Origin: Thozetella sp. PMI_491
Taxonomy: Eukaryota; Ascomycota; Sordariomycetes; Chaetosphaeriales; Chaetosphaeriaceae
Length of the DNA: 64,000 nucleotides
NCBI GenBank assembly: GCA_021432635.1
Contig: MU270079.1
Span: forward strand, 186,001-250,000
Direction: 5' to 3'
The translations under genes and the position numbers were made by a program. Positions 42,637 to 61,615 of this stretch are shown here, in pieces. Positions within the stretch are counted from its first letter, which is position 1, and every line of letters starts with the position of its first letter. The notes under the pieces were generated by a model. That model was not told the origin of the DNA, ran no database searches, and worked only from the letters and a program-made list of their open reading frames with translations.

Positions 42637-44927
42637 CTAAGCTGCTGTCGCCGACTTCTCAATAGCAAAGAATTGATCTTCCTCTTGCAGCGGTGGTGTT
42701 AAGACCGCATGAAGGACGTTCCGCCGCGGCGGCGGCGGAACTTGGACATTGTCAAGATATCCCGTGGTGGAAGTATCTTCCATCGACGCCATGATCATTC
42801 CGTTACCCATCCACTCCAACATATCCTCCTCGCCCTCTGTGAATGAGGTGTATTCAAAGTCCTCAAATCGAGGCGCTGCAAGTGTCGCCCGCTGGTGGAC
42901 GGCTGAACCGGGCCAGTATCCCAGCATTCTCCCATTGGCGGTTCTTTTCGCCCAGTTGTTGCACTGCGATGGCTACGATTAGACTCGAGACCCGTGGCGT
43001 ATGATGTACCCCTCTATTGATGACTTACTGTGAATGCAAAGGTGCTCTTGGCGAAGTAACGGTCTACCTGCTTCATAAACGCCCTGATCGAGACATCCCT
43101 ACTCCAATCGTTAGCTACTAGCGATCCCAAGATCTTGGCGCGGCGAACTCACTTGGCCACCATGGAACGTATGTTCTCTCTCTGTATCTTCTGAATGCAC
43201 TTGATCATGTATTCGCAAACACACTCGCTCATATGGATCGTAGATCCCGCGCCGGGTGCGCCATTCGGTCCGACAAACAGGAACAGATTGGGCATCTTCT
43301 CTGGAAAGATGGACATGTAGGCACCAGGTTCCGAGCTCCAGAGGTCATCGAGTGACACGCCGCCTAGACCGTAGATTGGTGTCTCATCGAGCCGGAGCTC
43401 TCTACAGCATAGCGGAGGAGAGTAAGGATCGCTGACCAAGGAAGTAGCACTGACAAGGAGCACTTACGTATTGAAGCCTGTCGCGCAAATAATGGCGTCA
43501 ACCTCTCGCAGGGTGCCGTCATCATCCACGATGCCATTCTCGATGACTCGTTTAATGCCCTTGGGGATGAAGTTGAGGTTATCCTCCACTAGAGACTCCA
43601 AGTACTTAGGACCGGGAGAAACCCGTCGGCAGGCCACAGGATACGTGGGTTTGAGGTGATCAAAGATTTCAGGCTTGCGCGCCAGTCTCCGTTTCATGGA
43701 CTCCTCAGTCGCCTTGGAGAAAGTCCGGTTCATTTCTGACCCTACCCAGTGGATCAACTGCGCTTTGTTGACATAATTCTCGACTGTATGTCGATATTGG
43801 ATGTATGACTTGGGATCCTGGGCGAACCTGTCTCTCTCCTCCTGGGAGTGTTCAACTAGGTCACAAGCGAGTTAGAGGGACTCCTAGACTTTGGGGCGGG
43901 TTATCGCCTACAGTTGTGTATGTCGGCGTTAGCTTTCCTCGGGTCGGCTGCGACGTAACCAGCCGGCGAGATCCACGCTTGACCACGGACGTAGTGGTCC
44001 ATATACTTAACCTTAGGCAGGATCGCCGGAACGAGCTGCACTGCAGTGGCGCCGTATCCGACGACCGCTACTCGCTTACCGGTTGGGTCGAAGGACTCAT
44101 CCCAGTTGGCCGAGTGGATCAACGGCCCCTGGAACTCTTGGAGCCCGGGAATTTGTGGCCAGGCCCATTTGTTCAGGTTTCCAGTGGCCTTCACGAACAC
44201 ATCACAGTAGTCTTTGAATTCCTATCGTATCATGTTAGGAAATGCACGCTTCTAGGCGAACTCGACGGGGGCGCGCGGGACATCTCACCAAACTGTCCCG
44301 TAGTCTGAGCAAGGTGATCTCCCACTGGGCCTGGTCCTGCAACCATCTAGCTGACTTGAAGAGGTGACCAAAGCGGATGTACTTTTTCACGTCGTAACGC
44401 TCTGCAATGTCATTGAAGTACTCGGCGATCTCCTGACCCGGAGAGAAGAAATAGGACCAGTTTGGGTTATTGGCAAAGGTGTACTGGAAGCAGTGGGAAG
44501 GAACATCTGCAGTGGCATGCTCGTTATCAGCCATCATGCCGAGATAAATTTATGCCAAAATCATCTCAGAAACTGGACGTACCGCAGGTGACGCCGGGGT
44601 ATCTACCGATAGTGAGCCTTATTGATACTCTACCGAAGCGAGCACTTCGGGATAAACCTACTTGTTCTCGTACCAAACACCACCGACTTCATCGTTCTTG
44701 TCGTAGATCCTCAAGTCAAGATTAGGAATCGTCTGAGGGAATCGGATACCGCAGAGAATGCCGGACATGCCTGCCCCAATGCAAACGACCTTGATGGGTC
44801 TGGCGTAGTCGACAGGGGCATCAGGGGGTTTGGGGACAGCACCCGGGCACTGCATGGTGGATAAGATAGAGGGTTCGGGGTAGACCTGATAAGAGCGTGT
44901 GGGATGCAGGAGAATGCCTTTTGCCAT
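42637..44927 (-). CDS. Flavin-containing Baeyer-Villiger-type monooxygenase
   Basis: Eight exons on the minus strand (44927-44662, 44602-44583, 44506-44289, 44221-43912, 43855-43468, 43401-43153, 43098-43029, 42963-42637) give 615 residues, with every phase closing. Exon 2 is only 20 bases and encodes the middle of YPGVTCD. Two Rossmann motifs are visible: GAGMSG at 51-56 (FAD) and GYGATA at 223-228 (NADPH). Between them is the Baeyer-Villiger fingerprint FQGPLIHSANWD at 198-209, fitting FxGxxxHxxxW. ATG-type motifs (ICATGFNT) and CNNWAKRTANGR near the C terminus also fit. Such enzymes insert oxygen next to a ketone to give an ester or lactone. A CGG-N6-CCG box lies 264 bases upstream of the ATG. 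It is the left-most gene of the proposed regulon; the substrate is unknown. Confidence 0.92.
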
Positions 44928-45865
44928 ACAATAGTTATACCTCTTGCTTGTAGAAATGAGACCCTGTCTTCGTCAAGCCTTAGCATACTTTTTTAGCATT
45001 TCACTTTGACTGCTACAGTTCCGTGCGGACGCCGCAGTGGCGTGTTGATCTAGTTAGATGGCTTTCTTGCGCGACACAACCATCGTATCAGCCCATATTA
45101 ACCCGCACGGGTCTAGAATCCATGAATGGTTGCATAGCGAACGCGTTGGGAACGACCCGAACTTGGCATGTTCCGCATGTTGCCCTAGGCCGGGCCATTC
45201 CGCCCGGGTATAAGACGAGTGGGGCAGGTCCCGGTGGGGATGCATCTCTTGGACAGAAGCGACCTGCCTAAGCTGGGCCCCCCCTCGTCCTACCGTATAG
45301 ATTGGCGCCCGGGTGGATATCCTTAGTTATTGAGCGTATGTGTAGACACCACGCGGCTCATCCCTAGTCTCTTGCCCCTATCATAGTGCTCTACGGCATG
45401 ACGGGATCTATCCGAGATGCCGAAACTCCGAAATTTCTGGACGTGACTACAGCAGCTACTGTCTTTGTTTCAGGACACTGTGGTTCAATGGCGTAACGAA
45501 TTTGATGCGCCGTAGTTTCGGCCAGCTGTACTAACGCCCAAGAGCCATGATGGAGGTATGCGAGAGCACCCTGGACGACGGCGTAACATTTACGGTAATT
45601 TGTCTACTCATGTAAGCCTCATGGCTGCAAATTTTACGTGACAATGGGGTTGGGAATTAGGAATACTCTACACTCATGGGACAAGGCCACGTTTCACTGT
45701 CTCCGGCCCGCCGAGTCATCAAGACGCCCGAGACATAGGATCAGCGACACTAACTACCGGCAGACCGACGCATTATGATCAACAAAGGCTCAACCATAGA
45801 CTAGATATTACGCAAATGGCCTCGTATTTGTCTCTTTATTCGTAATTGAAGTCCATAACGGTCAC
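44928..45865. promoter_or_regulatory. Monooxygenase promoter region with one CGG-N6-CCG box
   Basis: 938 bases between the monooxygenase start and the 3' end of the cupin gene. The box CGGGCCATTCCG lies at 45191-45202. The same 12-mer occurs in the regulator-transporter promoter at 58266. No reading frame with a recognisable domain. Confidence 0.5.
45191..45202. promoter_or_regulatory. CGG-N6-CCG inverted repeat upstream of the monooxygenase
   Basis: CGGGCCATTCCG, 264 bases upstream of the monooxygenase ATG. Identical to the box at 58266-58277. Inverted CGG triplets spaced by six bases are the form bound by dimeric Zn2Cys6 factors such as Ppr1 and UaY. The assignment to this cluster's regulator is inference. 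Confidence 0.55.
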
Positions 45866-46601
45866 TTAGTTTACGTTTGCTGTCGCTATCTTGCTCCACT
45901 CCCGAATGAGGTATCCATTTGGGCCCTCCAGAGGGTCAGTGCTCGGCAACGGGACCTGAAGCGCCCTTTGCTTGTTCTCTGCCGTATCCTCATCTGTCTG
46001 GCACCACACGCTGATCCATTTGGGATCCTGGAGGATAACATAAGGTTCAGTTTAGGAGAGCGACTGTATGTTACAGGCAAGGTACATACCTCTTTGGGGA
46101 AGAACACGATGAATCGGTAATCCTCAGTCGCGGTGGAAGAGCAATGAGAGACGCCGGCGGGTATGATCATGACATCTCCCTTGTTGAGTCTAATCAGCTG
46201 CTCTGCAGAGTGGTCATCCAACGGACCCCGCCCTATGGACAACTCGGACGATCCTGTAGCGACGCCTAAGAAATGAGATTAACCGGCTGTCATGGCGTAA
46301 GGTCTATGAAGACAAACCGTAGCACTCATGGACGTTGGGGTGATAGTGCGATTTGAACCACGCATTCCACGCGCCCTACTTGGATCAGAAAAGATTCCGT
46401 TTCTATCCAGGCTGAACAAAGCGTTCCAGGGACAACCACACTTACACCCCGGACCCATCCGCCGTTTGATTCCAGATAGATCCTGATCTCCTCTTCGTTC
46501 TGGCAGTGCTTCAGGGCCCCGCGGTAAACAACAACTGGTAACTCGCTCCCGGGGACGTACGGCGTGTCGCCGACGAAGTAGTGCTCGGGTTCAGACAACA
46601 T
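45866..46601 (-). CDS. Small cupin-fold protein
   Basis: Four exons (46601-46446, 46375-46318, 46265-46090, 46027-45866) give 183 residues with all phases closing. A single cupin beta-barrel is visible. Motif 1 is WNAWFKSHYHPNVHECYGVATG, where HYHPNVHE supplies metal-binding His/Glu. Motif 2 is RLNKGDVMIIPAGVSHCSS, with G-D-x2-IPxG-x2-H. A metal-dependent small-molecule enzyme (isomerase, decarboxylase, dioxygenase or dehydratase) is likely; the fold does not specify the reaction. Cytosolic by sequence. It is transcribed divergently from the FMN hydroxyacid oxidase across 473 bases that carry two CGG-N6-CCG boxes, which argues that the two act in the same pathway. Confidence 0.88.
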
Positions 46602-46808
46602 ACCGGGAGGCCTTTGCTGATATCCAGTCTGTGTCTGTCTATCGATGATCCAGCAGGAGATCGCAATCTTTCTAGTGGACGCCCTAGCGTGACGGCAATT
46701 GCGATTATATGAATCCTGGCATGTAGTGAAAGCATTCCGGGTATGGGCCGTGGCTTCGGCAAACCAATCAGCGCTCAGAGCCGTGACCCAGCGGATCCGG
46801 CCCGGGCC

Positions 46809-46820
46809 CGGACTGAGCCG
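46809..46820. promoter_or_regulatory. CGG-N6-CCG box 1 of the cupin / oxidase promoter
   Basis: CGGACTGAGCCG followed by A, so the right half fits the CCGA form. It sits 208 bases upstream of the cupin ATG. Confidence 0.55.
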
Positions 46821-46841
46821 ACTACGACCCGCAGCAGGGTT

Positions 46842-46853
46842 CGGAGTGTCCCG
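46842..46853. promoter_or_regulatory. CGG-N6-CCG box 2 of the cupin / oxidase promoter
   Basis: CGGAGTGTCCCG, preceded by T, so the left half fits TCGG. It sits 222 bases upstream of the oxidase ATG. Confidence 0.5.
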
Positions 46854-47074
46854 CGATTGGCTCTAAGCAACCGGTTCGACCTGTACGCCACCCGGCCGGC
46901 AACGGAGGACGCTACATGATCTTCATGGTGGTGTTTATAGACCCTTGTTGCCATCCGGATCATGTGCCCATAGTGTACTAAACTGTCTCGCTGCGTCAGC
47001 CTGCCAGGTGTAAGCAAGCTCCTTTATCGGGCCTCTGACACTGCACACGCTGAAAGCGCAAACAGTGAAGAAAC

Positions 47075-48770
47075 ATGGCTAAGTCTACGGAAATGATCTT
47101 AACGATCGCTGACCTACGGGCAACGGCATCGGCCAAGCTGCCGAAGCAAATCAGAGGTGCGGCATAATATTATCAGTAGAACCCTGTGACGTCGCCCATG
47201 CGTTATTGTCATCGTCGCTTCGGGAATGATATTGGTAGCTAGCGCTAACAGGTGGTTTGTAGACTATTTCAATGAGGGTGCTATGGAGATGCTTACGTAC
47301 GGACTGCCTCTTATCGGCCCATGTCTACCATGGCCAGTATGTCACTGACAGCTCTAGACTGCGGGAGAATGAAGAGGCATTCAATCGATTCAAGATTAGG
47401 CCCCGCATCCTCTCCAATGTCGCCAATGTTGACACCTCAACCACCATCTTAGGCCAAAAGGTGAGCGATCCTATTGTTGATAGAATAGCCACGGGAGATT
47501 CCTCAAGGATGAACACAGCCACAAACACTGCTAATCCGAAGCAAAGGTGCCTCTCCCATTTGGCTTTTCTCCGTCAGCGATGCATTGTATGGCCCACCCC
47601 GACGGCGAAAGAGCTACATCTCGAGGTGCCGCCGCTCGTGGAATCCCCATGGGGCTCTCCACCTATTCCACAGTCTCTTTGGAGGATGTAATCAAGGAGG
47701 GGGGTTCAAACCCTTACGCCTTCCAGCTCAGCATCTTGAAAGACAGGCAGACGAGTCTGAATTGGATCAAGCGGGCTGAAGGTGCGTCATTTATTGCCCC
47801 CTTTCCTCTTCGCCGTTCGTATTTGCTGTGTCCCCAACCCTCCTGCTAAGTATTGGTGTGATAGCTGCGGGGTATAAGGCACTCTTTATTACTGTGGATG
47901 CGCCGGTCCTTGGTCAGCGCTTGAACGAGACACGGAACCATCTCGAGTTGCCTGAGGGGCTTAGTTTACCTAATCTACAGAGCGAAGTTGTCACTGACAG
48001 CGACGGCAAGACCACCGTCGTCCCGGCACGAACTCACCACGTTCCTGGGCGAGACCCCAGCAACTCGTGGGAATCGGTGATTCCGTGGGTCAAGGCCAAT
48101 ACCAATCTGGAGATCTGGTTGAAAGGAAGTGAGTTTCTATTTATGCCGTCTGATTCCAGTGACTTAGTCGCACAGTGAGTATACCCCAATTGTACTAACC
48201 AGAAACCACTTCCAGTTTACTGTGCCGAAGACGTTCTTCTGGCCATCCGGTACGGCCTCGACGGCGTGATTGTCTCAAACCATGGAGGCAGGCAGCTTGA
48301 TGGTGTCCCGGCAACCATTGACGCCCTGCCTGAGTGCGCTGCAGCTGCAAAAGGCCGCATAAAGATTGCCATTGATGGAGGTATTCGCCGGGGTACCGAC
48401 ATCTTTAAGGCCCTGGCCTTGGGCGCAGATTTTTGTTTCATGGGCCGTGTGCCTCTATGGGGGTTAGCAGTAAGTACACGCACTCCACCTATCCAGCCCA
48501 TTTCCGCGATAGGCCTGTCGGCTGGGATAGTGATGGATATCACTGACACATTTGTATAGCATGATGGCCAAAAAGGCGTTGAACTGGCTATCAAGATACT
48601 GGAACAAGAACTACTGACAGCCATGGCACTTTCTGGGTTAGTTAAATTTGAGCATACTTCTAATTGAGCCTTCCTAATTGCTGACTTGCCCTAGATGTGC
48701 ATCCATCAGGGAGATATCAAGTAAACACCTGTCTGTTATTGGAGCGAATGGACTCTTGTGTAGACTATAG
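47075..48770 (+). CDS. FMN-dependent alpha-hydroxyacid oxidase/dehydrogenase
   Basis: Eight exons (47075-47156, 47263-47296, 47358-47460, 47547-47781, 47865-48128, 48216-48469, 48560-48636, 48695-48770) give 374 residues. All phases close and the introns have clear branch sites (for example TACTAAC at 48193). The family signature SNHGGRQLD contains the catalytic His (H262) and flavin-contacting Arg. LKGIYCAEDVLLA supplies the flavin Lys (K238). FITVDAPVLGQRLNETRN, IAIDGGIRRGTDIFKALALGA and FCFMGRV complete the TIM barrel. The length fits glycolate/lactate oxidases; there is no cytochrome b5 domain. These enzymes turn L-2-hydroxyacids into 2-ketoacids, passing electrons to O2 or another acceptor. 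The C terminus is Cys-Arg-Leu, which fits the PTS1 peroxisomal consensus. The nearby D-2-hydroxyacid dehydrogenase would serve the opposite stereoisomer. Confidence 0.92.
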
Positions 48771-49090
48771 CGACGTAGTTAGTTGGAGTTAGCTTGGTCA
48801 CATCTAGAGAAAAATAAAAGTGTTACTGTGAAATACCTTGCATCTAAGTCCCAGATCGCTACTTCGTTCGTGTGTTGAGACCGTCAATTAGGAGAGAGGA
48901 CTCTGTAACTATCGTTCCTTACATAGGGGGAATATCTTTTACACATAAGCCATACAGAAGACCAGACGGGCTACCTCCAACAGGTGCGTATCGAGCACCC
49001 TGTTATACATCATCATAAGACAACAGTTCTACGTCATAGTTGGAGTCTCACAAACAAGGTCTTCTTCCCCTATGTTTTGATTATGAACTT
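48771..49090. other. Convergent 3' gap
   Basis: 320 AT-rich bases between the facing stops of the hydroxyacid oxidase and class II aldolase genes. No gene. Confidence 0.5.
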
Positions 49091-50169
49091 TTAATCGAGG
49101 AAGTCCCCCTTCGTCTCCTTCAAGATCAAGTCGTACTCGGGCTTGAACTGCATGAACAACACCTCAGGAGTTCCGGACCCCTTCTTTGTATATGCTGCCT
49201 CCGCATTGCCCACGTACTTTTTCTCTAACCCGTTGGCCGCAGCAGCTTCGGCAAGAAGCTGCGTCTGGCACGCCTGCTCAAGGGCAATGAACAAAGCTGC
49301 TGCCTCGTCGACGGTGCCTCCGCATGTCAGAATGCTGCGGGGCCGGAGAAGTTAGCTTCAAGTAACATGGCATGGTCGAAGCTGTGAGGGCCTACCCATG
49401 GTTCTGTAGTATGACGCTCTTGTTCGTCGGGCCGAGCGCCTGGGCAATGCGGTCGCCCTCCTCCCTCGCCAATACAACTCCGCCAAAGCCCTCGTACACG
49501 GAGAGGTCGTTGTAGAAGAAGCACATATCTAGTAGTGTCTTGAGTTAGTTTCAGAAGAAGTGCTCGGTATTGCCCCAGCTTGCTCACCCTGGTTTAGCAT
49601 CTCGATGGGCTTGCCAAAGGTCGACCACGCTCGGCCGTAAGGCGAGTGCGTATGTGCAGCGGCGTGTACATCCGGCCGGGCCTTGTGCAGGGCAGCGTGG
49701 ATCATGAAGCCGGCCTTGTTGACCTTGTATGGGGTCGGTGTGAGAGGCTGGCCTTCCTCGTTGACCAGAATCAAGTCACTAGCTTTGATGAGAGCGAAGT
49801 GCACCGCGTATGGATCTATCGGTGTGCTGTAGTTAGCGCTCTTGTTTGGGTTCACGATAGCTTAACACGGGATGCACAGCCTGGCGAGGACATACTGATC
49901 CAGAAGCAGTCCGGTTGAACCGGGTCTCGTAGGCTGATATGGCCGCCGGCGCCATCGTTGAATCCCATCTTCGCGAAGATGCGGAAGGCCGCTGCCATGT
50001 GTTCCTTGGCCCACTGCCGCTCGGCATATTTGTCCGTGAATGTGGGGATGACATGGATCTTCTCGATCAGGTCGATACCGCTGGCCGGGGGCTCCGTCGA
50101 GGCCGGCCCGGAAGCTCGCAGAACCACCTCAGCCTCCGGGGCAGTTGCGGTCTCTGTGATGGTTGCCAT
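49091..50169 (-). CDS. Class II aldolase/adducin-family protein
   Basis: Four exons (50169-49896, 49815-49588, 49528-49396, 49334-49091) give 292 residues with phases closing. The class II aldolase/adducin head domain is complete. AKMGFNDGAGGHISLRDP is the phosphate-loop region. HAAAHTHSPYGRAWS carries the zinc-binding His-x-His pair, and SVILQNHGILTCGGTVDEA carries the third His. FALIKASDLILVNEEG and EAAALFIALEQACQTQLLA are standard family segments. Bacterial relatives cleave phosphorylated or free hydroxyketo-sugars or decarboxylate small acids. Fungal members of this length occur widely and their substrates are mostly unknown. Here it could split a hydroxy-keto acid produced by its neighbours. 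Divergent from the D-2-hydroxyacid dehydrogenase with one CGG-N6-CCG box between. Confidence 0.9.
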
Positions 50170-50696
50170 GTTGTTTGTTCCGTGGTAATGTCAATATGCT
50201 TGTCTACTCTTCCCTTGACACGCTGTCGCACGAAACGATGTCTCTTTGGTAGTATTCTCCCCCTCCTTTACCCCAAGTCTTTATCTCTGGAACCGTCCGT
50301 ATCAGGGCGGTGCGGATCGCCGCTGTGGAGACCGTGATAGACTTGTAGATGGGTGTGGGGAACGGCGCTCTTCAAGTCGGCGCCAGGGGTCACTAAGCTA
50401 CATTAGCTCGGTTCGTTCCGACTGTTTGTGGATTGGGTAGTGGGAACAACCGGAATGGCCCGGACACACGCATATTGTGAGGCAACGCACCCCCACACTG
50501 CCAGAAGTTGTAGGTACGACGCCGGAGCGTAGTTGTAGCTGCACTAAGCATGCTGCACACTCTCTTAGAGACTGTATCGATAGATAACCAGGCCCTGGCA
50601 AGGTGCTTCTGCACCGCAGTATCTCATATTCCTAGCCTGACACAACTCCCCCTTTTAGCTGACTACTCATACGCTACCCACCTACCCTTGTGCAAC
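50170..50696. promoter_or_regulatory. Divergent aldolase / D-hydroxyacid-dehydrogenase promoter
   Basis: 527 bases with one perfect TCGG-N6-CCGA box at 50408-50421. An ATG in frame with the dehydrogenase at 50550 lies in the leader but is judged too far upstream to be the start. Confidence 0.6.
50409..50420. promoter_or_regulatory. CGG-N6-CCG box of the aldolase / dehydrogenase promoter
   Basis: CGGTTCGTTCCG flanked by T and A, so it fits the extended form TCGG-N6-CCGA. It sits 240 bases from the aldolase ATG and 277 from the dehydrogenase ATG. Confidence 0.6.
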
Positions 50697-51868
50697 ATGG
50701 CAGATGCTCCGGTACCAATCGCCACCAAACCAAGAGTCTTGTCGCTGGGCAAGCTCAACTATGCAGACCCCGCCATGCTCCAGAATTTTGAGTCCAAGGT
50801 CGATCTCCACGTGGTGCAGCCCAGTGACCGGGAGAGCACAGTGAAGCTCATTGCCGAGACAGCCAAGTCACAAAGCCCCTTTGATGCTGTCATGATATTA
50901 ATGGGGAGCGGGCCCTATGAGCGCTTCGATGAGGAACTCCTTGGGCCCCTCGTCCCAGGTATCAAGATTGCGGCATGCGTCAACGCGGGGTACAGCGAGT
51001 TTGACCTGAACTGGTTTACGTCGAACAAGATCTATGTGACCAACACGTTGCACGCTGTGGCAGAGCCCACGGCGGATATGGCCATGTACCTTATCCTTGC
51101 GGTTCTGAGAGATACATACCAGAAGGAGAAGAACGTCCGGATGGGCGGCTGGAGAAACGCCACAAGTCCACCTCGAGACCCGAATGGCTTGACTCTGGGC
51201 ATAGTAGGCATGGGCAAGATCGGCAAGGCAAGTCTTTCAATGCCTGACAAAGAAAGCAAAGCGAAACGAGAGAAGTGGTTCAATTATAACCAAACTCTGC
51301 TAACTCCTCATCAGCACGTGGCCAGAAAGGCCAAGGTCTTCGGTATGAAGATTCAGTACTATAACCGGTCACGGGTGCCGGAGGAGGAGGAAAAGGCCCT
51401 AGAAGCCAAGTACTGCTCCGAATTGAAGGAGCTACTCGCAACATCTGATGTTGTCTCCATCAACTGCCCGCTGACCGACGCAACGCGCGATATGATTGGC
51501 GAGGCCGAGATCGCTGTCATGAAGGACGGCTCGTTCCTTGTGAACACAGGACGTGGACCCGTCGTGAATGAGAAAGCGCTCATACAGGCATTGTGGTCTG
51601 GCAAGATCGAGAGGGCAGGACTGGACGTCTTCGACCACGAACCTAAGATCAAGTGAGCTCCTTATGCCTAGACATACGATATCCTGAGAATCGAAGCTAA
51701 CAGGAGGCAAATAGCCCCTTCTTTCGCGCGAGCGAAAAGGTCATTGTGCAGCCACATATGGGCTCTTGGACAGACGTCGCCTGGAAGAACGCGTATCACG
51801 AAACAATGGCCAATATCGAGGCATTGTTCTTCGATGGAAAGCCAATTTCTCCTGTAAATAAATTTTAG
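50697..51868 (+). CDS. D-isomer-specific 2-hydroxyacid dehydrogenase
   Basis: Three exons (50697-51227, 51315-51652, 51715-51868) give 340 residues. The first intron uses a GC donor (AAG/GCAAGT), a CTAAC branch site and a CAG acceptor. It is 87 nt, free of stops and in frame, so retention would insert 29 residues right behind the NAD loop. The ATG at 50697 (CAACATGG) is preferred over 50550, which would add 49 unrelated residues. The Rossmann loop GIVGMGKIG (Gly 171, 173, 176) is followed by SINCPLTDATRDMI. The catalytic Arg lies in LVNTGRGPVVN, the Glu in GLDVFDHEP and the His in VQPHMGSW. Relatives reduce glyoxylate, hydroxypyruvate and other 2-ketoacids to D-hydroxyacids with NAD(P)H. It ends 183 bases from the convergent aminotransferase gene. 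Confidence 0.92.
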
Positions 51869-52051
51869 ATGATTTCTGTATGAAGTAAATAGATAGTCGC
51901 TGTCATAGCGGCCGCACGGGACTAGACCAACTTATGACTTCATGCTACGTTCGTAAGGTATAATATACTAGGGGCAAAAAGGATCAACACTTCTCGCTTC
52001 TTATCTGCATGCAAGAAACTGCAAATAGTTTTAGCAAAGCTTAGCGAGACA

Positions 52052-53481
52052 CTAAATGGCGATCAAAGCCCGGTGAAGTGTGCAGAACTTCCGGACCTCC
52101 TCAACAAACAAATCTAGTGCCTCCTGGGGGAATACCAAGCTGAGCGCGATTGTCCCACGGCTTTGGACCCACCAACCGGCCTCTAGCATCTCCAACCAAA
52201 AGAGCTCTTTGAGAGCATTGTCCTCAACGGGCAATACGTCGTCCTTGCAGGAGATCTGCTCAGCTCGCAGGCCACTAGTTGTGGCGTGGATGCACATCAG
52301 TGAGCCGCGCCCAGTGACACAGAACCTCGTACCCCGGAAGACATCGTTCAACTGCTGCCGCAGATCGTCGCCGCGTTTATTGAGTGCAATGGAGGCCTCT
52401 TCCGTATATACCTCAGAGAGACCGACGTAGCCGGCGTTCAGCATCATGCAGTTGTTCTGAAACGTGCCCGAGTGCGCGAGCGAGCCAGGGGTGCGAGGGT
52501 CATAGACACTCATAATGTCTTCCCGACCACCAAAGGCACCAAACGGCATCCCGCCGCCTAGATACTTTCCGAGTGTGACTAGGTCGGGTTGCACGGCAAG
52601 GGTGCTCTTCAGGCCGCCTACAGCTAGTCGGGACGTGACCACCTCGTCTAGTATGAACAGGGCGCCGTTCTGAAGTGTCTCCATTAGCACAAGGGACAAA
52701 GGGCTTGAATTCAGACAGCAGATTGAGAAAATAACTCACGGCCTGGGTCACATCGCGAATTGTTTTCAAGAATTCCGCCGTTGCCGAGACTGCTCCACCG
52801 GAACTCTGCACGGCCTCCAAGATAACGGCGGCGATGTCCTTGTGCTCTTCAAATACTTTCTTCACGCCGTCGACATCGTTGTACTGCAAGAGAAGCCAAT
52901 CGGTAGGATCCACATTGTTCGGGGCAATGTCAGTGCCAAAAGAGAGCACACCACCATGGTAGGCTCCGCGAAAGACGACTACCTTGCGGCGGCCGGTGAA
53001 CTTCCTCGCCGCCGCCAAGCAATGGATATTGGCCTCGGTGCCGGAATTTGAGAAGCGGAGGCGGTCGAGGCCGAAACGCGCGCACAGAAGTGATGCATAG
53101 CGTTGCTCGTAGCGCGTAGTAGCGCCCAGGTTCAGCCCGATGCCGTAAAGAGCGGCGGACAGAGCTTCTTGGAGACGGGGATGTGAATGACCGTAGAGTC
53201 CGGCCGTCAGGTCTCCTGTGAGATCGTTGTACCTTGAGGGGAGGTCAGTTGGTTCATCTAAACAAGCTCTAATTCATTGAGAGCTTAACTCACTCGTGCC
53301 CATCCTCGTCAAAGACCTTGTATGCCTCGCCCCTCTGAATGCTAACTGGGAACGGAGGAGTATAGAGAAGCGTTCTCGTGTTTCCTCCGGGGAGGCTCTG
53401 GAGTGCCTGCTCAAACAGCTCCTTCGACTTTGGGTTCCTAGCGGCGAAGCGCTGAATGGCACTCTCTATCGCGACGTCCAT
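52052..53481 (-). CDS. Class III aminotransferase, GSAM / beta-transaminase-like
   Basis: Three exons (53481-53294, 53232-52740, 52669-52052) give 432 residues with phases closing. This is a fold-type I PLP enzyme. RFSNSGTEANIHCLAAAR binds the PLP phosphate, FTGRRKVVVFRGAYHGG is the family loop, LFILDEVVTSR supplies the PLP-pyridine Asp (235), and TLGKYLGGGMPFGAFGG carries the Schiff-base Lys (262). The N-terminal part (SLPGGNTRTLLYTPPFPVSI, GLYGHSHP) and overall length fit glutamate-1-semialdehyde aminomutase-like enzymes. Within these it looks most like beta-amino-acid (beta-phenylalanine type) transaminases rather than heme-pathway enzymes, which fungi do not need. That subfamily call is from memory of motifs. 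RidA lies divergent to it, which fits release of a reactive imine or enamine. Confidence 0.9.
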
Positions 53482-53625
53482 ATTGTGCGGGGCAGCTGGT
53501 GCTGTGGTCCGGACTGCAATCGCCGACCGGCAGACTGACGTATAATGAGCACTGAGAGCCTCAAAGTATAGTGCCTGGGCTGCGATCTATCCCTATCGGA
53601 TACAACGATGCTCCGGCTGGACCTA

Positions 53626-54225
53626 GGCTGTGTTAGAGCCGGGATCACTCCGCATCTCCTGTTACGGCGGTTCCACGCTTTCGGCTGAAGCCGATTTGCC
53701 TCCACCGCCTAGGGGCCGGCCGGTGGGGTTGAGCCGACATCGCATGTCAACACATGGAATTTGGCGGTCCAGATCCCCTTGGGAAGCTCATACACCCATA
53801 CGCTCGAAAGTAAAGTGAAGAGTATGACTTAAGAGAATTGATCGAGTTATCACTACCACCGCTGCCTAGAAAGTGAGCGTTTCAATAAGTACTTAGAGCT
53901 TACCCGTCTAATTGCCTGGCCCGTGCCCCATCCGCATAGGTTACCACTTACGGCGCCTGGCATAATCGCTTAGGCTGGTAGAGCTGGCATCATCCCGCAC
54001 CCCATCCGCATTGGTTACTACTTACAGCACCTAGGTTATTCGCCCAGGCAGGCTGTTTTAGAACTGGCATCACTCTACGCCCCCTGTTGAACCCCTATCG
54101 TAGTTCTCGTTGGAGCTGATGTGCGTTTACATGTCTACCAGGCAGGTACCTGAGCTAGACGTCATCACGTCCAGCTCGAAACGACCGCCTTTGACAATGG
54201 GTGGGGCGAGCCGACATCGCAGGGC
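53626..54225. repeat. Three diverged copies of a short repeat between aminotransferase and RidA
   Basis: The word GGCTG-n-TTAGAgCcGGgATCACTC recurs at about 53626, 53972 and 54048. Copies two and three extend into a shared CCCCATCCGCAT and GGTTACCACTTAC segment (53936 and 54001). A second shared word, GAGCCGACATCGCA, is at 53731 and 54209. Most differences between copies two and three are C/T or G/A, as RIP or old cytosine deamination would leave. I cannot tell whether this is a decayed mobile element or a duplicated promoter part. Confidence 0.45.
53682..53693. promoter_or_regulatory. CGG-N6-CCG box of the aminotransferase / RidA promoter
   Basis: CGGCTGAAGCCG flanked by T and A, fitting TCGG-N6-CCGA. 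It lies 201 bases upstream of the aminotransferase ATG but 834 from RidA, so control of RidA from this site is less certain. Confidence 0.55.
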
Positions 54226-54526
54226 GCGCGAAGAATGTGGGAACTGAAGCGAAGCAAATAGTCTATTGCTAAGAAAATCATGGATAGTTCCGAGATAAAA
54301 AGGGCAGATAGATAGAATCGGAGGCTCCCTTTGCGATATATTCCGAGTACCGGCCCGGGAAGAGGAATGGATACCTCTAGGCTATCACGCTGGAAGATAA
54401 TATAAACGTCTAGTCCCCATAGCATCTGCGTATTCCATCCTCGAATTCTTGTCTTAACCTTTTGGAAGTCCTCTGCTCTTTTGTAATCTGATAGCTCCAA
54501 TGGTGTATCTCCGTTGTGCTGCAGCC

Positions 54527-55076
54527 ATGCCTGGTCACCAGACTATCACCGCTACCAACGCCCCGGCCCCAAACCCGGTCCTCTCCCAGGCAACAGTCTA
54601 CAATGGACAAGTATTCTGCTCTGGCTCGCTGGGAGTTGACCCCAAGACTGGCAACCTTGTCGAGGGGACGATTGGAGATCGCACTGTACGCCCAACTCTC
54701 GACCTCCCTTACCGACCCTGTTCGCGGCACAAGCTAATCCATCCCCACTAGACCCAAGCCCTGAAGAACTTGCAGGCTGTTCTAGAAGCTGCAGGATCCG
54801 GGATCGACAAGGTTCTGAAAGTGATGATCTATGTCACCAGCATCAGTGACGTGCCTGCCCTGAACGCGGCCTACACTGCGTTTTTCCCCGAACCAAGGCC
54901 GGTGAGTCCCAACGAGAGCACCCCGGACAATGCTGTGATACGTGATTTCCCAAGTAAATATCTCGAAGAGATCTAACGAGTTTACTTCAATTCTATTATA
55001 GGCGCGTGCATGTGTAGCCGTTAAAGAGCTGGCTAAAGGAACAGATGTGGAGATCGAGTGCGTTGGGTACATCTAG
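54527..55076 (+). CDS. RidA/YjgF/YER057c-family enamine/imine deaminase
   Basis: Three exons (54527-54685, 54752-54901, 55002-55076) give 127 residues, the usual RidA length. The start MPGHQTITATNAP at 54527 fits fungal relatives better than the in-frame ATG nine codons upstream. Family features are NPVLSQATVYNGQVFCSGSLGVDPKTG, ALKNLQAVLEAAGSGIDKVLKV, and the last-exon RACVAVKELAKG with the conserved catalytic Arg. RidA hydrolyses 2-aminoacrylate and similar enamines/imines formed by PLP enzymes. Most fungi carry a mitochondrial and a cytosolic form; here there is no evident mitochondrial presequence. Its place in the cluster beside a PLP aminotransferase suggests a pathway-specific copy. Only 70 bases separate its stop from the convergent regulator gene. 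Confidence 0.92.
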
Positions 55077-55146
55077 ACACCGTCAGTCTGCCCTTCTTGG
55101 CCTCCATGCGAGTCTTTACGGAGGCAGGTGTACATGTAGTCTTAAT

Positions 55147-57658
55147 TTAATTTATCATGCTAGATAACAGCACCTCCACCGACGAGCACATGCCCACTTC
55201 CGTGATGTTCGCCAAGAAGCCCGTCAGCTGCTCATCAGTCGAGGAGGACAGCACGGGCATAGCAGGTACCGTCATAGAGGTCTCTAGCTCCGCGAGCATG
55301 GTCTGGGTGGCGCGTGAGAGCATGTCGAAGGCGTCACGATAGGGCTGAACCGCCGCCCACCTCTCTGCCATGACTGCGAGCACTACCATGCAGGAAGTAC
55401 AAGTGGCCGACACCTTATCCAGCCGAAATACGACACGCGTCTCGGGGCTCGTCCAAAGGCAGTACAGGAACGTTACACCGCCAAGAAACAGCACGTGCAA
55501 GGCACCCCAGGTATCGTTGAGGCGCTGGCTGAGATACAGCTGGCGGTATATCGAACATATTGACTCGGCCGAGTGCGCCGACTCCAAGAAAGTAGACCCC
55601 GGTGTCGTCTCATCCGTCCGGCTCGAGTGGAGCACTAGGTTGTGACGATGGAGGAGGAGGATGGAGTGGTGGTACATTAAGTTGAACCATTCAGAGCCTC
55701 CAAAGGCATTGTTGTGCGCTCGGTTGGACTGTAGCTGTTCTGGTGCTGAGTCGCGCCAGTCCTTCAGTTCCATTTTGAAGCCTTCAATAAGCATCGAGGA
55801 CATGAAACCAGGCGTATCGTTCCCTCCCCTTTGGGGGTACACGAGGCTTTGTATTCGCGTCCATATATGCCTCACGCGGATGGTGTGGATGGCGGCGGAC
55901 ACGGTCGTCGTCGGCTCTGAGTTGGATACTCTCGGTTCGGCCAAGAGCCCTGCTACGGTAATGTTCTCGTCGTTGATGTCTAGCGGGAGCTGGAAGAACA
56001 GTAAGCATCTAGGAAATCTGACACTAGAGGGCGCAGAGGAGGTCTTACCTCTACATCAATATCGGAATCTGTGATTCCCACCGGCCGCCCAAGGGTAATA
56101 GCTACGGCACGGTCCAAATTGTACGCACACCAGAACACGCGTCTCCGCATCTGCGTCTTGAGCATGTTGAGCTCCACCTTGAACCAAGGAATCTTTCGAT
56201 GGAGGCCCATCTCTATGCACTGGCGGAGAGCAAGGCCAGACAACGTCCTGTAGGTTGCTTATCAATAAAATACCTTAGAGTACAATGGAGAAAGCGGGAA
56301 GAGATCGTCGGCTACGTCGATAGCAATGGCGCCTTACCATACAGAAATCCCTACTGGAGAGCGCATCGAATACATAGCGCAGCAGAGAATGGCTTGTATC
56401 GATTCTAATGTGCTCAGTTTCATGACCTTCTCGAACAAGTTCTCAGCGGATGCGTAAAGTCCCTACATAGCGTTAGCATAATGGAAAGCCAGCACATTGA
56501 AGTGAGGTTGTGATATACCTCTGGTAGTGAGGCGCCGGCGAGAGGGCCGGTCAAGGCACCGACTGCTGCAACCTGGGAAGATAAGCATGAGAGAACTGTT
56601 GCGGAGTGGTATGTCTGAGATCACCCACAGCGTAGAGAAAGAAGAGATGCACCGGGTCAGGCGAGTATCCAGACTCGACGGCCGTGAGGACTTCCTCTTC
56701 CCATTGAAGAAAGGTAGGTCGGTGCAGGAAAGGGAACTGCGGGTGCACTTGGTCGAAGTAGGCTGCCGTCAGCATTGTAGTCACGCTGCGGTCGGGTAGC
56801 GGGACCGGCGTAGGCGTCGGCCGAGCCTGCACCAGTTTCGACGGCAGGCCAGCCATGGTGAGGCCCGGCGCCTGTGCGCGGACGCCGCGCAGGGTAGCGG
56901 AGAACAACTTGGTGAGCGAGTAGCCTGAAGATTCCCCGAAATAATGGGGATCGCCTCCGGCCGCACGCAGGCAAAGCAGTTCTAGATTGGAGAAGTCATC
57001 GCCGTCGTGGGTGCTACCGGCGCTGTCAACGGCGGCTGCATCCGAGAAGCTGGTGGCCGCCCGGTCGAATCAGCGTCGCCCAGGCTGGGATGGGAGGGGA
57101 AGGGTCGAGTTCACCTTGGTGTCTGGCATTCATCCTCGTGTGCTGGGCCGTCTCGCCGTCGCGAGAGCATTCCGGCTGAGCTGCTGGTCAGCAAGTCTAG
57201 GTCTACATTCGGCAGCACCTCGCGCATGCGGTTCTCGAGAAAAGCGATGTGCTGCTCGAGGGAGGCGTTATGCTTCTCCAAGGACTCCAGATAACCGCGA
57301 GGGTGCCGGCGCTTCGTAGACGGATCCTGACTGATACATTCTACCCGCACGTACATGCTTTCGTCAGCATTTTACTGGTCACAGCCGGGAAGGAATGCTC
57401 GAATGGCAAGATACCCACCTCGATTTGCTCTGAGGCATTGTCTGCAGGCAGGCGTTTGTCCATCACACTATGAGAATGGTCGAGGCACTTATTAGCACAC
57501 GCGCCACGGGACGGTACAGGACGCATCGTGGCAGTGGGGGAGGGAAGGTTCGGAGGGTGCCATACCCGTTGCTTCTTCTGCTGGCAAGCCAGGCAAGCAA
57601 GTGATACCCGAGGCCGCCTCCGGAGCGGAGGCCCGGGCGACGAGTGCGAGTCCGACAT
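55147..57658 (-). CDS. Zn2Cys6 transcription factor, likely cluster regulator
   Basis: Eight exons on the minus strand (57658-57566, 57467-57419, 57340-57115, 57049-56629, 56572-56519, 56462-56338, 56247-56049, 55989-55147) give 669 residues, every phase closing. The Zn2Cys6 cluster is split over three exons: CLACQQKKQR, CDGQTPACRQCLRANR, EC. The six Cys are residues 22, 25, 32, 39, 42 and 49. A coiled coil follows (YLESLEKHNASLEQHIAFLENRM), suited to dimerisation. The fungal_trans domain has YFDQVHPQFPFLHRPTF, CCAMYSMRSPVGISVW, LALRQCIEMGLHR, RRRVFWCAYNLDRAVAITLGRP and DSDIDVELP. It lies between RidA and the transporter. Two CGG-N6-CCG boxes in its own promoter suggest autoregulation. That it binds these boxes is inference. 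Confidence 0.92.
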
Positions 57659-58221
57659 GGCTGGGTGAGCGACCAGCCCTTCAGCAGTAACAACGGTGCA
57701 GGGGCCAGAGCCGTATGCTCAGCGCTCTGCAATCTATCTCTACACTTTTACGCGATGTACCGGCAGTTGTCACCTGGAGGTTGCTGCACCCCGCAGCAAC
57801 AAGCGATGCACGGCGACGTGTGGGGACCCTTGGCTCCTTGCCACGGGCTGTCTTAGGTAGCACATTCAGGTATGATAAGACCAAGTGAAGCTAAGGGGAC
57901 CCAAAGCTATCCAAAGCTCTCTTAGCTTCTCCATCATTAGAGGAGACCCACAGCCGTGCGACACCGTAAATTGGAGAGCCTGTCTATCTTATCTTGACCT
58001 TTCTATCAGGATGACCAACAAGGCACCCTGGCAGTCGTTTGCTCGCCAAGATGGAATCACCCACCTGCTGCGTCTAACCCGGGGTACGGAATCGCGAAAC
58101 CGAAAGTCCGAAGTGTTTCTAAGCCAGATAAGCCAAGTCTCCAGTAGTGCACCGTCGGCTGGGAACAGGGAACTAGACAGCTAATTACGAGTCAGAGCAT
58201 CATCCTCGGTGGATACCCACT

Positions 58222-58233
58222 CGGGTCAGACCG
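58222..58233. promoter_or_regulatory. CGG-N6-CCG box 1 of the regulator / transporter promoter
   Basis: CGGGTCAGACCG flanked by T and A, fitting TCGG-N6-CCGA exactly. Confidence 0.6.
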
Positions 58234-58265
58234 ACTTCCCCACATTATCCAACCCCGAGCTAGTA

Positions 58266-58277
58266 CGGGCCATTCCG
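58266..58277. promoter_or_regulatory. CGG-N6-CCG box 2 of the regulator / transporter promoter
   Basis: CGGGCCATTCCG followed by A. The same 12-mer occurs upstream of the monooxygenase 13 kb away. Confidence 0.6.
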
Positions 58278-58488
58278 AAGGCTGGCGTCAGTCAGACTTC
58301 AGCCCCTATCGAACCAGGCACGGCGTCGTCAAGGTGGGACGCGGAGAGGCAAGGCTGATGATTGGCATGCTGGATGACCTAGCCACTCAAGGATCGAAAG
58401 TTACAAATGATGACGAGCCGCCGTGAAGAGGGCCTTTGAGGATCTTAGCACCCGGCATCGCGACTGTCTCGTCGCACAAAAAGACAAC

Positions 58489-60379
58489 ATGGATACCAAG
58501 AAGACAGATTCCATCGTGGCCCCGCGTGTCTCGTCCGACCTCATGGAGGGTGAAGTGATCACGTCTGCGACCAAGGGGGGCTTTACGGCCGAGGAGGTCG
58601 CTAGGGCACTGGCCGAGTACCAGCCCGGATCCAAGGCTGAGAAACGCATGCTCCTCAAGGTTGATCTGTTTCTCCTACCGACACTTTGGATTATGTGTGT
58701 TATCTGTTACATGGATCGCAATAACATTGTAAGTCTTGGGATGAGGCTGGCGGCACTATGTGAGAACGTCTAGGAAGCTAACAGGTTGTTATGACTAGGG
58801 CAATGCGAATGCTGCTGGCATGAGCAAGGACCTCCATCTTTCAGACACCCGTAATAACCCACCGATTGTTTGATTCCATCAATGGCAGTGCTGACTAGGC
58901 GAACCGAAAAGAATATTCGCTGCTCATTTCCTTGTTCTTCGTCGGCTATGTCCTGTGGGAGGTACCATCCAATATCATATTGTCACGGACCCGGCCAGCC
59001 TTCTACCTTCCAGGGCTTATGGTGGTAAGAGATCCAAATATTCTACGAGAACTTGGGGCCCGACATGAGCGAAGGAGACTGACCCAGTGAAACACAATTA
59101 TAGGCTTGGGGCACTCTTGTATGTGGCATGTCCCAGGTCAATGACTTCAAGGACATCCTCATTTGCCGGTTCTTCTTGGGCGTGATCGAGGCCGGCTTCT
59201 TCCCTGGCGTCCTTTACATCATGTCTTGCTGGTACAAAAAGAACGAAATCGGTACGTGGACTGGCCCCCGCCAAAGTCAAACACAGTCTACCTGGGCAGA
59301 ACCGAGCTGACCGTCAATCGTTCATCCGCAGGCAAACGATTCTGCTTCTTTTTCACCGCACTGTGCTTTGCAGGAGCAGCTAGCGGCCTCATCTCGGGCG
59401 CAGTGATCTCAGGTCTTGACGGCGCGAGGGGCATGACCGGTTGGCGTTGGCTTTTCTTGGTGGAGGGCATCGTCACCATCAGCTGGGCCATCGTCTCCAT
59501 CTTTCTCCTATTCAACTATCCTGACACAAAGTCGCGCCGCCTAAATGACCAGGAACGACTGCTGGCCATCGTCCGCATCATGCACGACAAGGGCGATGTC
59601 GCATCGGCCCGTAAGCGCCGGCGTCTGACGCCTTTGGAGAGTGTCAAGGCCGCCCTCGTCGATCTGCGGACCTATTTCTTCATCATCCTATATATGACCC
59701 AGAACGGCTCTACCACAGTATCGTATTTCATCCCGACTGTCCTGAATAGTATGGGGTATACCGGGGTCTCGGCGCAGTGGATGACAGTCCCCATCTGGGC
59801 GGTGAGTATCATCCCGTCGCTGCAAGTATGATTCTCTAGAGCGTATCGATGCTAACCGGCTGAATGTTGTTCCAGGTTGGTACCGTCTTCCTCCTCGTGT
59901 TCCCGCAGACTGCCGATAGGTACAACGACAGGAGGTGGCACATCGTGGGCGGGCTTATGACCGGCTTCATCAGCGCCGTAGTTAGTGTGTGCGTGCCGCA
60001 TAACCAGCAGGTTCGGTACGCCTTCATGTGCTTCTATATTGCCGGGCTTTACATGACTCTGCCGCTCATCTTGAACTGGGCGTCCGAGCTCATGGCACTT
60101 CCGGCGGAGAAGCGGGCCGTGGTCATCGCCCTTACCAACTGCGTGGGGAGCATCTCGTCCATCTATGGCAGCTTCCTCTGGCCGTCGACCGACGCACCCG
60201 AATACAAGAAGGGCTTCACCGTCGTTTCCATCTTCCTCGGATTCGGCGTCTGCCTTGCCGCCGGACTACCAATCATCTTCCGACATCTGCCCACCTTCAC
60301 AACCAAGGCGGAGCGGGAGCTCGCGGCAGAGATGCAGAGGGAGAGGGCGGAGACAAGAGGAAGCGACGGTACCGAGTGA
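58489..60379 (+). CDS. MFS transporter, Dal5/Tna1-type anion:cation symporter
   Basis: Six exons (58489-58728, 58799-58850, 58912-59024, 59104-59251, 59332-59801, 59876-60379) give 508 residues with phases closing. The ATG at 58489 (CAACATGG) begins MDTKKTDSIV. Twelve membrane spans are expected. The first contains DLFLLPTLWIMCVICYMDRNNIGNA, the hallmark of the anion:cation symporter branch (allantoate, nicotinate, pantothenate, biotin precursors). GYVLWEVPSNIIL, CRFFLGVIEAGFFPGVLY and GWRWLFLVEGIVTI also fit. A central cytosolic loop follows (NYPDTKSRRLNDQER). It should carry an organic anion across the plasma membrane by proton symport. Placement next to the regulator and the shared boxes make it the likely uptake step of the pathway. 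Confidence 0.92.
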
Positions 60380-61615
60380 TCTGCCGGACAAAAGTACTCT
60401 TTCTACCATGGTTTTAGAAACGATAGCCAGGACTGTGGCTTCCTCGCAAGCGCCACCGTTTCTTGTGTAGTGGTACTTTCAGACCAACAGCCAGCCTGCT
60501 TAATCTCGCGTCTCATCCGGGTGAAAAGGGCGCCTTCCTATGCGAGCGTGACAAGTGCTGAATGCGCGAATTCATGTACTTTTTATAATTGCTACCAAGC
60601 GACCCGAAGCCCTGGGGCCAGCCTGGTTGGTATGGTGTTTTACATACAGACTATGGCTAATGTGGTCTAGACCTGAAGATATTTGCCACTCTCCTGCACC
60701 CGATGCCAGATCACTGATTCCGCATTAGGCATAGGGGCTCGGAAATAGATGAAATTCATGAAACCGATCCAAGGTAGCCAAATTTGAGGGCTGGATAAAA
60801 GGGCTCTCGGTCGAGTGCCTGAATGGTGTGCCCCGCCGGATGCAGTTGGATGCACAAGAGAGCCGGGTATTCTGTCCTATTGGGGGCCGTAGACGACGTG
60901 AAGTGGAAACCGAGGCCGTCGTAGCAGACGATCCATCCAGTGACAACTAACTTAAAGATACGCTTGCAGGTCTTTCTGCCAATGGCGAGCCTTAGCTTCT
61001 AGATAGTGTGTATATTTCTGTCGTCCCAAGCCCGACGTCAGCGCTAATACTTGGTGCGAATTGGGCAGCGTAGCATCCAGCCGCTGTCCTACCCGCATAC
61101 GGCTGTCTTCGTCACTAAGCCCCAGCTCTGTCGCCCCCACAGGGTTGCACTCCGAACCAATGTGTTACCAAGTCTGGGGAAGACCAACGTAATAGGAAGA
61201 GACTATCTCCGGTCATCTCTTGTCCTCATTGGACTAGTGTCGACTTGGAGGGCAGCGGCCTAGAAGCGGCGCAAAGGAGGGGGATACATGCATGGGCTGA
61301 AAACCTGCAGCTGGCAACATGTCCTCAAGCCCACCGGATGTTCCGCGGCGCGGAATTGATTCAACTTAACCGTATGGGCGTGGGCGGCGCTGCAAGAAAG
61401 CGCGGGAACCTCTGATAGGACTGGACCCTGGTCTGCATCAACTTCTAATCGAAATAGCCACAGGCCAAGAACACCTTGCCAACCAATAAGTTGATAAGAG
61501 CAGAACTGCCCACGCATACATAGGCGATCCGCAATTTTTTTTTGCCACCCCATGATGTGTTTAGCAGCGCTGTTCTCTCCCACAAGATATCAAACTCGTC
61601 CTGGCAACTGCCACC
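60380..61615. other. Intergenic gap, no gene seen
   Basis: 1.24 kb between the transporter and the MOCOS-like gene, same strand. I find no CGG-N6-CCG here; the nearest approach is CGG-N5-CCG at about 61336. A poly-T tract at about 61536 precedes the next start. Only chance reading frames. Confidence 0.5.

Follow-up and report, generated by a model that had tools for sequence, protein, structure and literature searches.

The 5' non-coding gaps of a nine-gene cluster in the ascomycete Thozetella sp. PMI_491 contain eight inverted repeats of the form CGG-N6-CCG, referred to here as boxes, and all five gaps carry at least one of them. The cluster lies between 42.6 and 60.4 kb of the window, i.e., the whole 64,000-nucleotide stretch of DNA that was analyzed (contig MU270079.1; C65:186001-250000), within a genome of 72,315,471 bp in 157 contigs; the introns and the genes present suggest a filamentous fungus. 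Since a box is found in all five gaps above chance, and since the same promoters carry sites for nitrogen control, the cluster is very likely one unit under its own regulator. We estimate at approximately 0.78 the probability that the eight boxes are the operators of one pathway-specific activator of the Zn2Cys6 type, most likely the protein encoded at 55147-57658 inside the cluster.

A previous reading of this DNA, made from its letters alone (below, the sequence-only reading), had listed seven boxes, at 45191, 46809, 46842, 50409, 53682, 58222, and 58266, with at least one in every 5' gap. All of these coordinates were exact, and the boxes at 50409, 53682, and 58222 had correctly been assigned to the extended form TCGG-N6-CCGA. 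An eighth box, CGGAATGGCCCG at 50451, had been overlooked; it is the reverse complement of CGGGCCATTCCG, so that this 12-mer, which had been said to occur in two gaps, does recur as proposed but in three gaps. The observation of the boxes is stronger than was originally reported. The counts per gap are 1, 2, 2, 1, and 2. The window contains 20 boxes in all, 11 of which fall within 44928-58488; the three of these 11 that lie outside the 5' gaps (46450, 53062, and 57033) are inside predicted exons. In seven of the nine genes, the nearest box is located 201–336 bp upstream of the ATG (Table 1).

The frequency of the boxes was compared with the density in the whole genome rather than in promoters only. 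The genome contains 21,628 CGG-N6-CCG boxes, corresponding to one per 3.3 kb or 0.30/kb, as compared with 2.05/kb in the five gaps. At the genome rate, 1.17 boxes would be expected in the 3898 bp of gap sequence (Poisson P for at least eight, 3e-5), and the probability of at least one box in each of the five gaps is 3e-4. Dinucleotide shuffles of the gaps gave a mean of 1.07 boxes and a maximum of five, and the observed count was reached in 0 of 2000 shuffles. These figures agree with the sequence-only reading, which had put the gaps at about 3.8 kb with roughly one chance box, and the genome-wide density check that it had suggested was passed, the gaps being the denser. When 63 arrangements of CGG triplets were considered (three orientations with spacers of 0–20), the inverted arrangement with a six-base spacer was the only one present in all five gaps. 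An inverted or everted arrangement of any spacing with at least eight occurrences across all gaps was seen in one of 2000 shuffles.

The boxes also stand out by their pairing and by their identity. Pairs 15–40 bases apart number 283 genome-wide; the cluster holds three, while 0.05 would be expected in 13.6 kb. The 12-mer CGGGCCATTCCG occurs 14 times in the 72 Mb genome, with three of these copies in three gaps of the cluster, and this word and its own one-base shift are the sole 12-mers that recur between gaps. Three identical 12-mers would be expected approximately 1e-5 times among eight random boxes. The spacer GCCATT is identical in three boxes, and four of the 100 genome copies of CGGGNCANTCCG are found in the cluster. 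It should be noted that these measures of enrichment are not mutually independent, or at best partly so.

The presence of a Zn2Cys6 gene inside the cluster, as claimed by the sequence-only reading, was borne out by the cysteine pattern, a Ppr1-type linker, and a Fungal_trans domain. After splicing of two introns, the motif C-X2-C-X6-C-X6-C-X2-C-X6-C is present as CLACQQKKQRCDGQTPACRQCLRANREC, and the start of the protein reads CLACQQKKQRCDGQTPACRQCLRANREC-ISQDPSTKRRHPRGYLESLEKHNASLEQHIAFLENRMREVL. The best match among solved structures is Ppr1 (1PYI, E 4e-9), with Gal4, Put3, and others scoring lower. The alignment to Ppr1 shows no gap between the first cysteine and the end of the linker (CISQDPSTKRRHPRGYLESLEK vs CVSLDPATGKDVPRSYVFFLED), and the two lysines between cysteines 2 and 3 are shared, QQKKQR of the regulator aligning with RLKKIK of Ppr1. 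Following the linker, heptad positions L/N/I/M and L/L/L/V were read, by eye only, in LESLEKHNASLEQHIAFLENRMREVL. The sites of Ppr1 and UaY have the six-base spacing CGG-N6-CCG, and the match in domain and linker thus makes the cluster protein a regulator of the right type for this spacing. In such proteins, two lysines contact CGG and the linker fixes the distance between the triplets, according to PMC4245848. A literature search under various spellings of the CGG-N6-CCG site found no paper.

An unbiased word scan of the gaps was topped by GATAGA and not by the box, which led us to test HGATAR, the AreA consensus as given in PMC8478523. The five gaps (44856-58488) contain 25 HGATAR sites, compared with 8.5 expected from background and a shuffle mean of 10.6, and the number was reached in 0 of 500 shuffles. 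There was no significant excess in any of the six other non-coding stretches of the window, the closest being the one upstream of the MOCOS-like gene (5 vs 2.7; 39 of 300 shuffles). CCAAT and a CreA-type pattern were not enriched in the gaps. The enrichment of HGATAR is a new observation that goes beyond the sequence-only reading. Taken together, the GATA excess and the boxes suggest the two-signal layout of fungal nitrogen-source genes, in which a specific inducer is combined with nitrogen derepression.

On this basis, the following mode of control can be proposed. The regulator would bind CGG-N6-CCG as a homodimer of the Ppr1/UaY type in the four divergent promoters and in the monooxygenase promoter, and the nine genes would be switched on jointly in the presence of the substrate or of an intermediate. 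The regulator would also feed back on its own promoter, which it shares divergently with the MFS gene. Because AreA-type GATA sites occur in the same promoters, expression would also need nitrogen derepression, so that two signals would be required.

The nine genes were defined from gene models, obtained by a codon-usage splice search with joins made by eye, and from library and PDB matches; their order and strands are given in Table 1. Among solved structures, the nearest relative of the aminotransferase is beta-phenylalanine aminotransferase (E 2e-107); the matches of the monooxygenase are to Baeyer-Villiger enzymes. The best match of the aldolase-family protein is a fuculose-1-phosphate aldolase entry, followed by TqaM and the NovR decarboxylase. 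For the D-2-hydroxyacid dehydrogenase, the matches were to glyoxylate reductases and D-mandelate dehydrogenase, and for the FMN enzyme to lactate and hydroxyacid oxidases, 4-hydroxymandelate oxidase among them. For the cupin-like protein, there was no significant library match, and its PDB matches, to 11S globulins, were weak (best E 0.37). Taken together, the enzyme matches suggest that the cluster may allow an aryl or beta-amino / 2-hydroxy acid to be broken down as a nitrogen source.

Table 1. Boxes and genes of the cluster, with one gap as an example of the HGATAR sites; positions refer to the window, and distances are from box to ATG.
Feature	Position	Strand	Location or remarks
Box CGGGCCATTCCG	45191..45202	+	FMO/Baeyer-Villiger monooxygenase promoter; 336 bp from ATG 44855
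Box CGGACTGAGCCG	46809..46820	.	Divergent cupin-like/FMN-dehydrogenase promoter; 208 bp (cupin-like), 256 bp (FMN-dehydrogenase)
Box CGGGACACTCCG (as read on -)	46842..46853	-	Divergent cupin-like/FMN-dehydrogenase promoter; 241 bp (cupin-like), 223 bp (FMN-dehydrogenase)
Box, extended TCGGTTCGTTCCGA	50409..50420	.	Divergent aldolase/D-2-hydroxyacid dehydrogenase promoter; 240 bp and 277 bp
Box, third copy of CGGGCCATTCCG	50451..50462	-	Aldolase/D-2-hydroxyacid dehydrogenase promoter; 282 bp and 235 bp
Box, extended TCGGCTGAAGCCGA	53682..53693	.	Divergent aminotransferase/RidA promoter; 201 bp (aminotransferase), 834 bp (RidA)
Box, extended TCGGGTCAGACCGA	58222..58233	.	Divergent regulator/MFS promoter; 256 bp (MFS), 564 bp (regulator)
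Box CGGGCCATTCCG	58266..58277	+	Divergent regulator/MFS promoter; 212 bp (MFS), 608 bp (regulator)
Gap with nine HGATAR sites	53482..54526	.	Between aminotransferase and RidA genes
FMO-like / Baeyer-Villiger monooxygenase gene	42637..44855	-	Alternative in-frame ATG near 44927; nearest box 336 bp
Small cupin-like protein gene	45866..46601	-	Cupin-like by eye; nearest box 208 bp
FMN-dependent alpha-hydroxyacid oxidase/dehydrogenase gene	47076..48770	+	First and last exons by eye; nearest box 223 bp
Class II aldolase/adducin-family gene	49091..50169	-	Relatives TqaM, NovR decarboxylase; nearest box 240 bp
D-2-hydroxyacid dehydrogenase gene	50697..51868	+	Protein matches; nearest box 235 bp
Class III aminotransferase gene	52052..53481	-	Best solved relative beta-phenylalanine aminotransferase; nearest box 201 bp
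RidA/YjgF-family gene	54527..55076	+	Last exon by eye
Zn2Cys6 transcription factor gene	55147..57658	-	Two introns spliced; Fungal_trans domain
MFS transporter gene	58489..60379	+	Gene model and matches; nearest box 212 bp

A more far-reaching proposal, which we put forward tentatively and regard as less likely than not, is that the cluster represents an undescribed fungal nitrogen-source pathway with a two-input switch (the cluster regulator on CGG-N6-CCG and AreA on GATA) that has been kept at a duplicated locus, C15, described below. In such a pathway, a beta-aryl-amino (or aryl 2-hydroxy) acid would be taken up and transaminated by the aminotransferase of the beta-phenylalanine type, and the later steps would involve the NovR/TqaM-like enzyme, the two hydroxyacid dehydrogenases, and the Baeyer-Villiger enzyme. 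Conversion of a beta-keto acid to acetophenone would supply the ketone for the latter.

Related loci were sought within the same genome. At C15 (L033, C15:383001-393000, 4226-10000), there is a paralogous trio consisting of an aldolase, a Zn2Cys6 regulator, and a D-2-hydroxyacid dehydrogenase. The aldolase is 66% and 45% identical to that of the cluster over two pieces and the dehydrogenase 47%, and in the regulator paralog the cysteines and the linker are spaced as in the in-cluster regulator. Each 5' gap of the trio contains a single box, at 341 bp from the ATG of the aldolase in one and at approximately 405 bp from that of the dehydrogenase in the other, and both gaps show a GATA excess (7 vs 2.6, 3 of 300 shuffles; 5 vs 1.7, 5 of 300). 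The box evidence from C15 is weak by itself, as the two gaps together amount to 1.8 kb, in which approximately 0.5 boxes would be expected at the genome rate. Boxes were searched for at eight paralog loci and GATA sites at C15 and C9. The six loci other than these two had boxes without a clear pattern, or none: one approximately 0.5 kb before the aldolase at L035, one each more than 1 kb away at L030, L031, and L032, a second inside the gene at L031, one inside the gene at L027, and none at L024.

The 11 copies of CGGGCCATTCCG elsewhere in the genome were examined with 4 kb on each side, and there was no convincing promoter target among them. Nine are within some open frame of at least 140 amino acids, which is not proof of coding, and the tenth (L011) is in the apparent coding N-terminus of an amidase gene. 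The eleventh (L015) is outside such frames; a frame for a FAD-linked oxidase starts 1.2 kb downstream, and the locus showed no match to the cluster proteins. As a separate observation on the word CGGGNCANTCCG, three of its copies occur within 13 kb at C76 (L020-L022, C76:120000-149999), the sole other place among the 100 copies with three so close; these 30 kb showed no match to the cluster proteins.

The limits of the regulon are less clear than its core. The sequence-only reading had seen no box upstream of the GMC, Clr5, and MOCOS-like genes, and had taken this to set the boundaries. The stretches upstream of the GMC gene (35520-36703) and the MOCOS-like gene (60380-61614) are indeed free of boxes, but a box is found at 39873-39884, 448 bp upstream of where the Clr5 gene probably starts (40332); the Clr5 domain is present in the frame of this gene. 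The boundary on the Clr5 side is therefore uncertain. Read on the minus strand, the 39873 box differs from the 53682 box at one of 12 bases. The shared-operator interpretation as first formulated is partly supported, namely by the excess of boxes over chance, by the fit of the regulator's domain and linker to the 6-bp spacing, and by the boxes of the C15 trio, whereas the regulon limit is not clean, given the Clr5 box and the distant box of RidA.

Apart from the box at the Clr5 gene, several findings weigh against the view that the boxes are operators of the in-cluster protein. The sole box of RidA is 834 bp off and the regulator's own boxes are 564–608 bp off. The Ppr1 match is not specific and is no proof, because linkers of the form DPxTxxxxPR are common in this large protein family. 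At C9 (L034, C9:535001-545000, 3592-7866), where a regulator paralog adjoins a RidA gene, boxes are present only inside the span of the regulator match, and the two upstream stretches tested had no box and no GATA excess. Direct repeats with an eight-base spacer are as frequent in the gaps as the boxes (eight CCG-N8-CCG and two CGG-N8-CGG), the CCG-N8-CCG repeats being confined to three of the five gaps (a, b, and d; 45021-54008). A general consensus of the spacers was considered and rejected: the spacers of all eight boxes were more alike than random (a value reached by 4 of 1500 random sets), but not significantly so when identical copies were counted once, the value then being reached by 428 of 3000. 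The random sets were drawn from a pool of 82 spacers, taken from the 23 loci that had been fetched first and from the remainder of the window; some of these loci overlap and had been selected for boxes. The window overall is not enriched in boxes (20 vs 24.9 in shuffles), and when 35,951 gapped trimer pairs were ordered by enrichment in the unbiased scan, the box came only 24th, a rank lowered by the inclusion in the background of loci fetched for such boxes.

The last two findings, together with the occurrence of the pattern every 3.3 kb in the genome, would fit the view that a common GC-rich pattern is clustered here by chance and was singled out post hoc. This is very improbable in view of the shuffles, none of which reached the count, the presence of a box in five of five gaps, and the three identical 12-mers. 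Those three copies could instead be leftovers of a recent duplication of one promoter piece, and not independently kept operators. In line with this, the copies at 45191 and 58266 share CTAG three bases upstream, and those at 45191 and 50451 share one more base, C. However, the sequences next to the three copies diverge at the very first base on the right and within two bases on the left, both orientations occur, and, apart from the one-base shift, no further 12-mer is shared between gaps; duplication is disfavored and appears extremely unlikely. It is also conceivable, although unlikely, that the boxes are real operators read by another Zn2Cys6 protein, a paralog or a global regulator, and that the in-cluster protein acts elsewhere or on another site. 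When the genome was searched with the regulator, 68 of 336 first-look candidates were scored and 83 matching pieces were obtained, of which several extend into the DNA-binding domain; the C15 paralog, with its identical cysteine and linker spacing, would predict the same half-site spacing, and the distance of the in-cluster regulator's boxes from its own ATG points in the same direction. On the other hand, the regulator gene is inside the cluster and encodes a Zn2Cys6 domain and linker that suit the spacing, and this locus shows a concentration of the three-copy 12-mer. We favor the in-cluster protein as the reader of the boxes.

The results define a concrete, testable regulon with eight 12-bp sites, one candidate regulator, nine target genes, and GATA sites that predict nitrogen control. 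If the interpretation is true, this would be a further case in which the DNA code of a fungal cluster, with the half-site spacing given by the linker, is readable from sequence alone and can serve to delimit a catabolic cluster and to indicate the class of its substrate.

Among known systems, Ppr1 of Saccharomyces cerevisiae resembles the regulator in the spacing of the Zn2Cys6 cysteines, the KK pair, and the gapless linker up to the putative coiled-coil region, a likeness seen in the best PDB match. The sites of Ppr1 and of UaY from Aspergillus nidulans are likewise inverted CGG boxes with a six-base spacer; of the boxes in the present cluster, three have the extended form TCGG...CCGA. The targets of Ppr1 and UaY are dispersed pyrimidine or purine genes, whereas the cluster described here consists of contiguous targets that include the regulator. 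For the enzymes, a comparison can be made with beta-phenylalanine transamination (PMC6150868), which is bacterial, the best solved relative of the aminotransferase being a beta-phenylalanine aminotransferase; no fungal cluster of this kind was among the literature matches listed.

The arrangement of the operators is comparable to that of the terrein cluster of Aspergillus terreus, in which an in-cluster Zn2Cys6 protein, TerR, is likewise combined with one CGG motif across the promoters. According to PMC4360782, that motif was found in silico in most promoters of the cluster and confirmed by surface plasmon resonance and reporter tests. In the TerR motif as given there, TCGGHHWYHCGGH, the repeat is direct and the spacer has five bases, in contrast with the inverted repeat with six bases in the present cluster, and the terrein cluster is biosynthetic while the present one looks catabolic. 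The nitrogen control resembles that of the hxn nicotinate regulon of A. nidulans, which, according to PMC8478523, likewise comprises nitrogen-source clusters with AreA HGATAR sites, bidirectional promoters shared between genes, and a factor specific to the pathway; it differs in that HxnR is a Cys2His2 zinc-finger protein and in its substrate and enzymes. The boxes would thus represent an operator specific to one pathway and of a kind already known, comparable to TerR and terrein in the operator and to hxn in nitrogen control, a conclusion that is well supported, if unproven.

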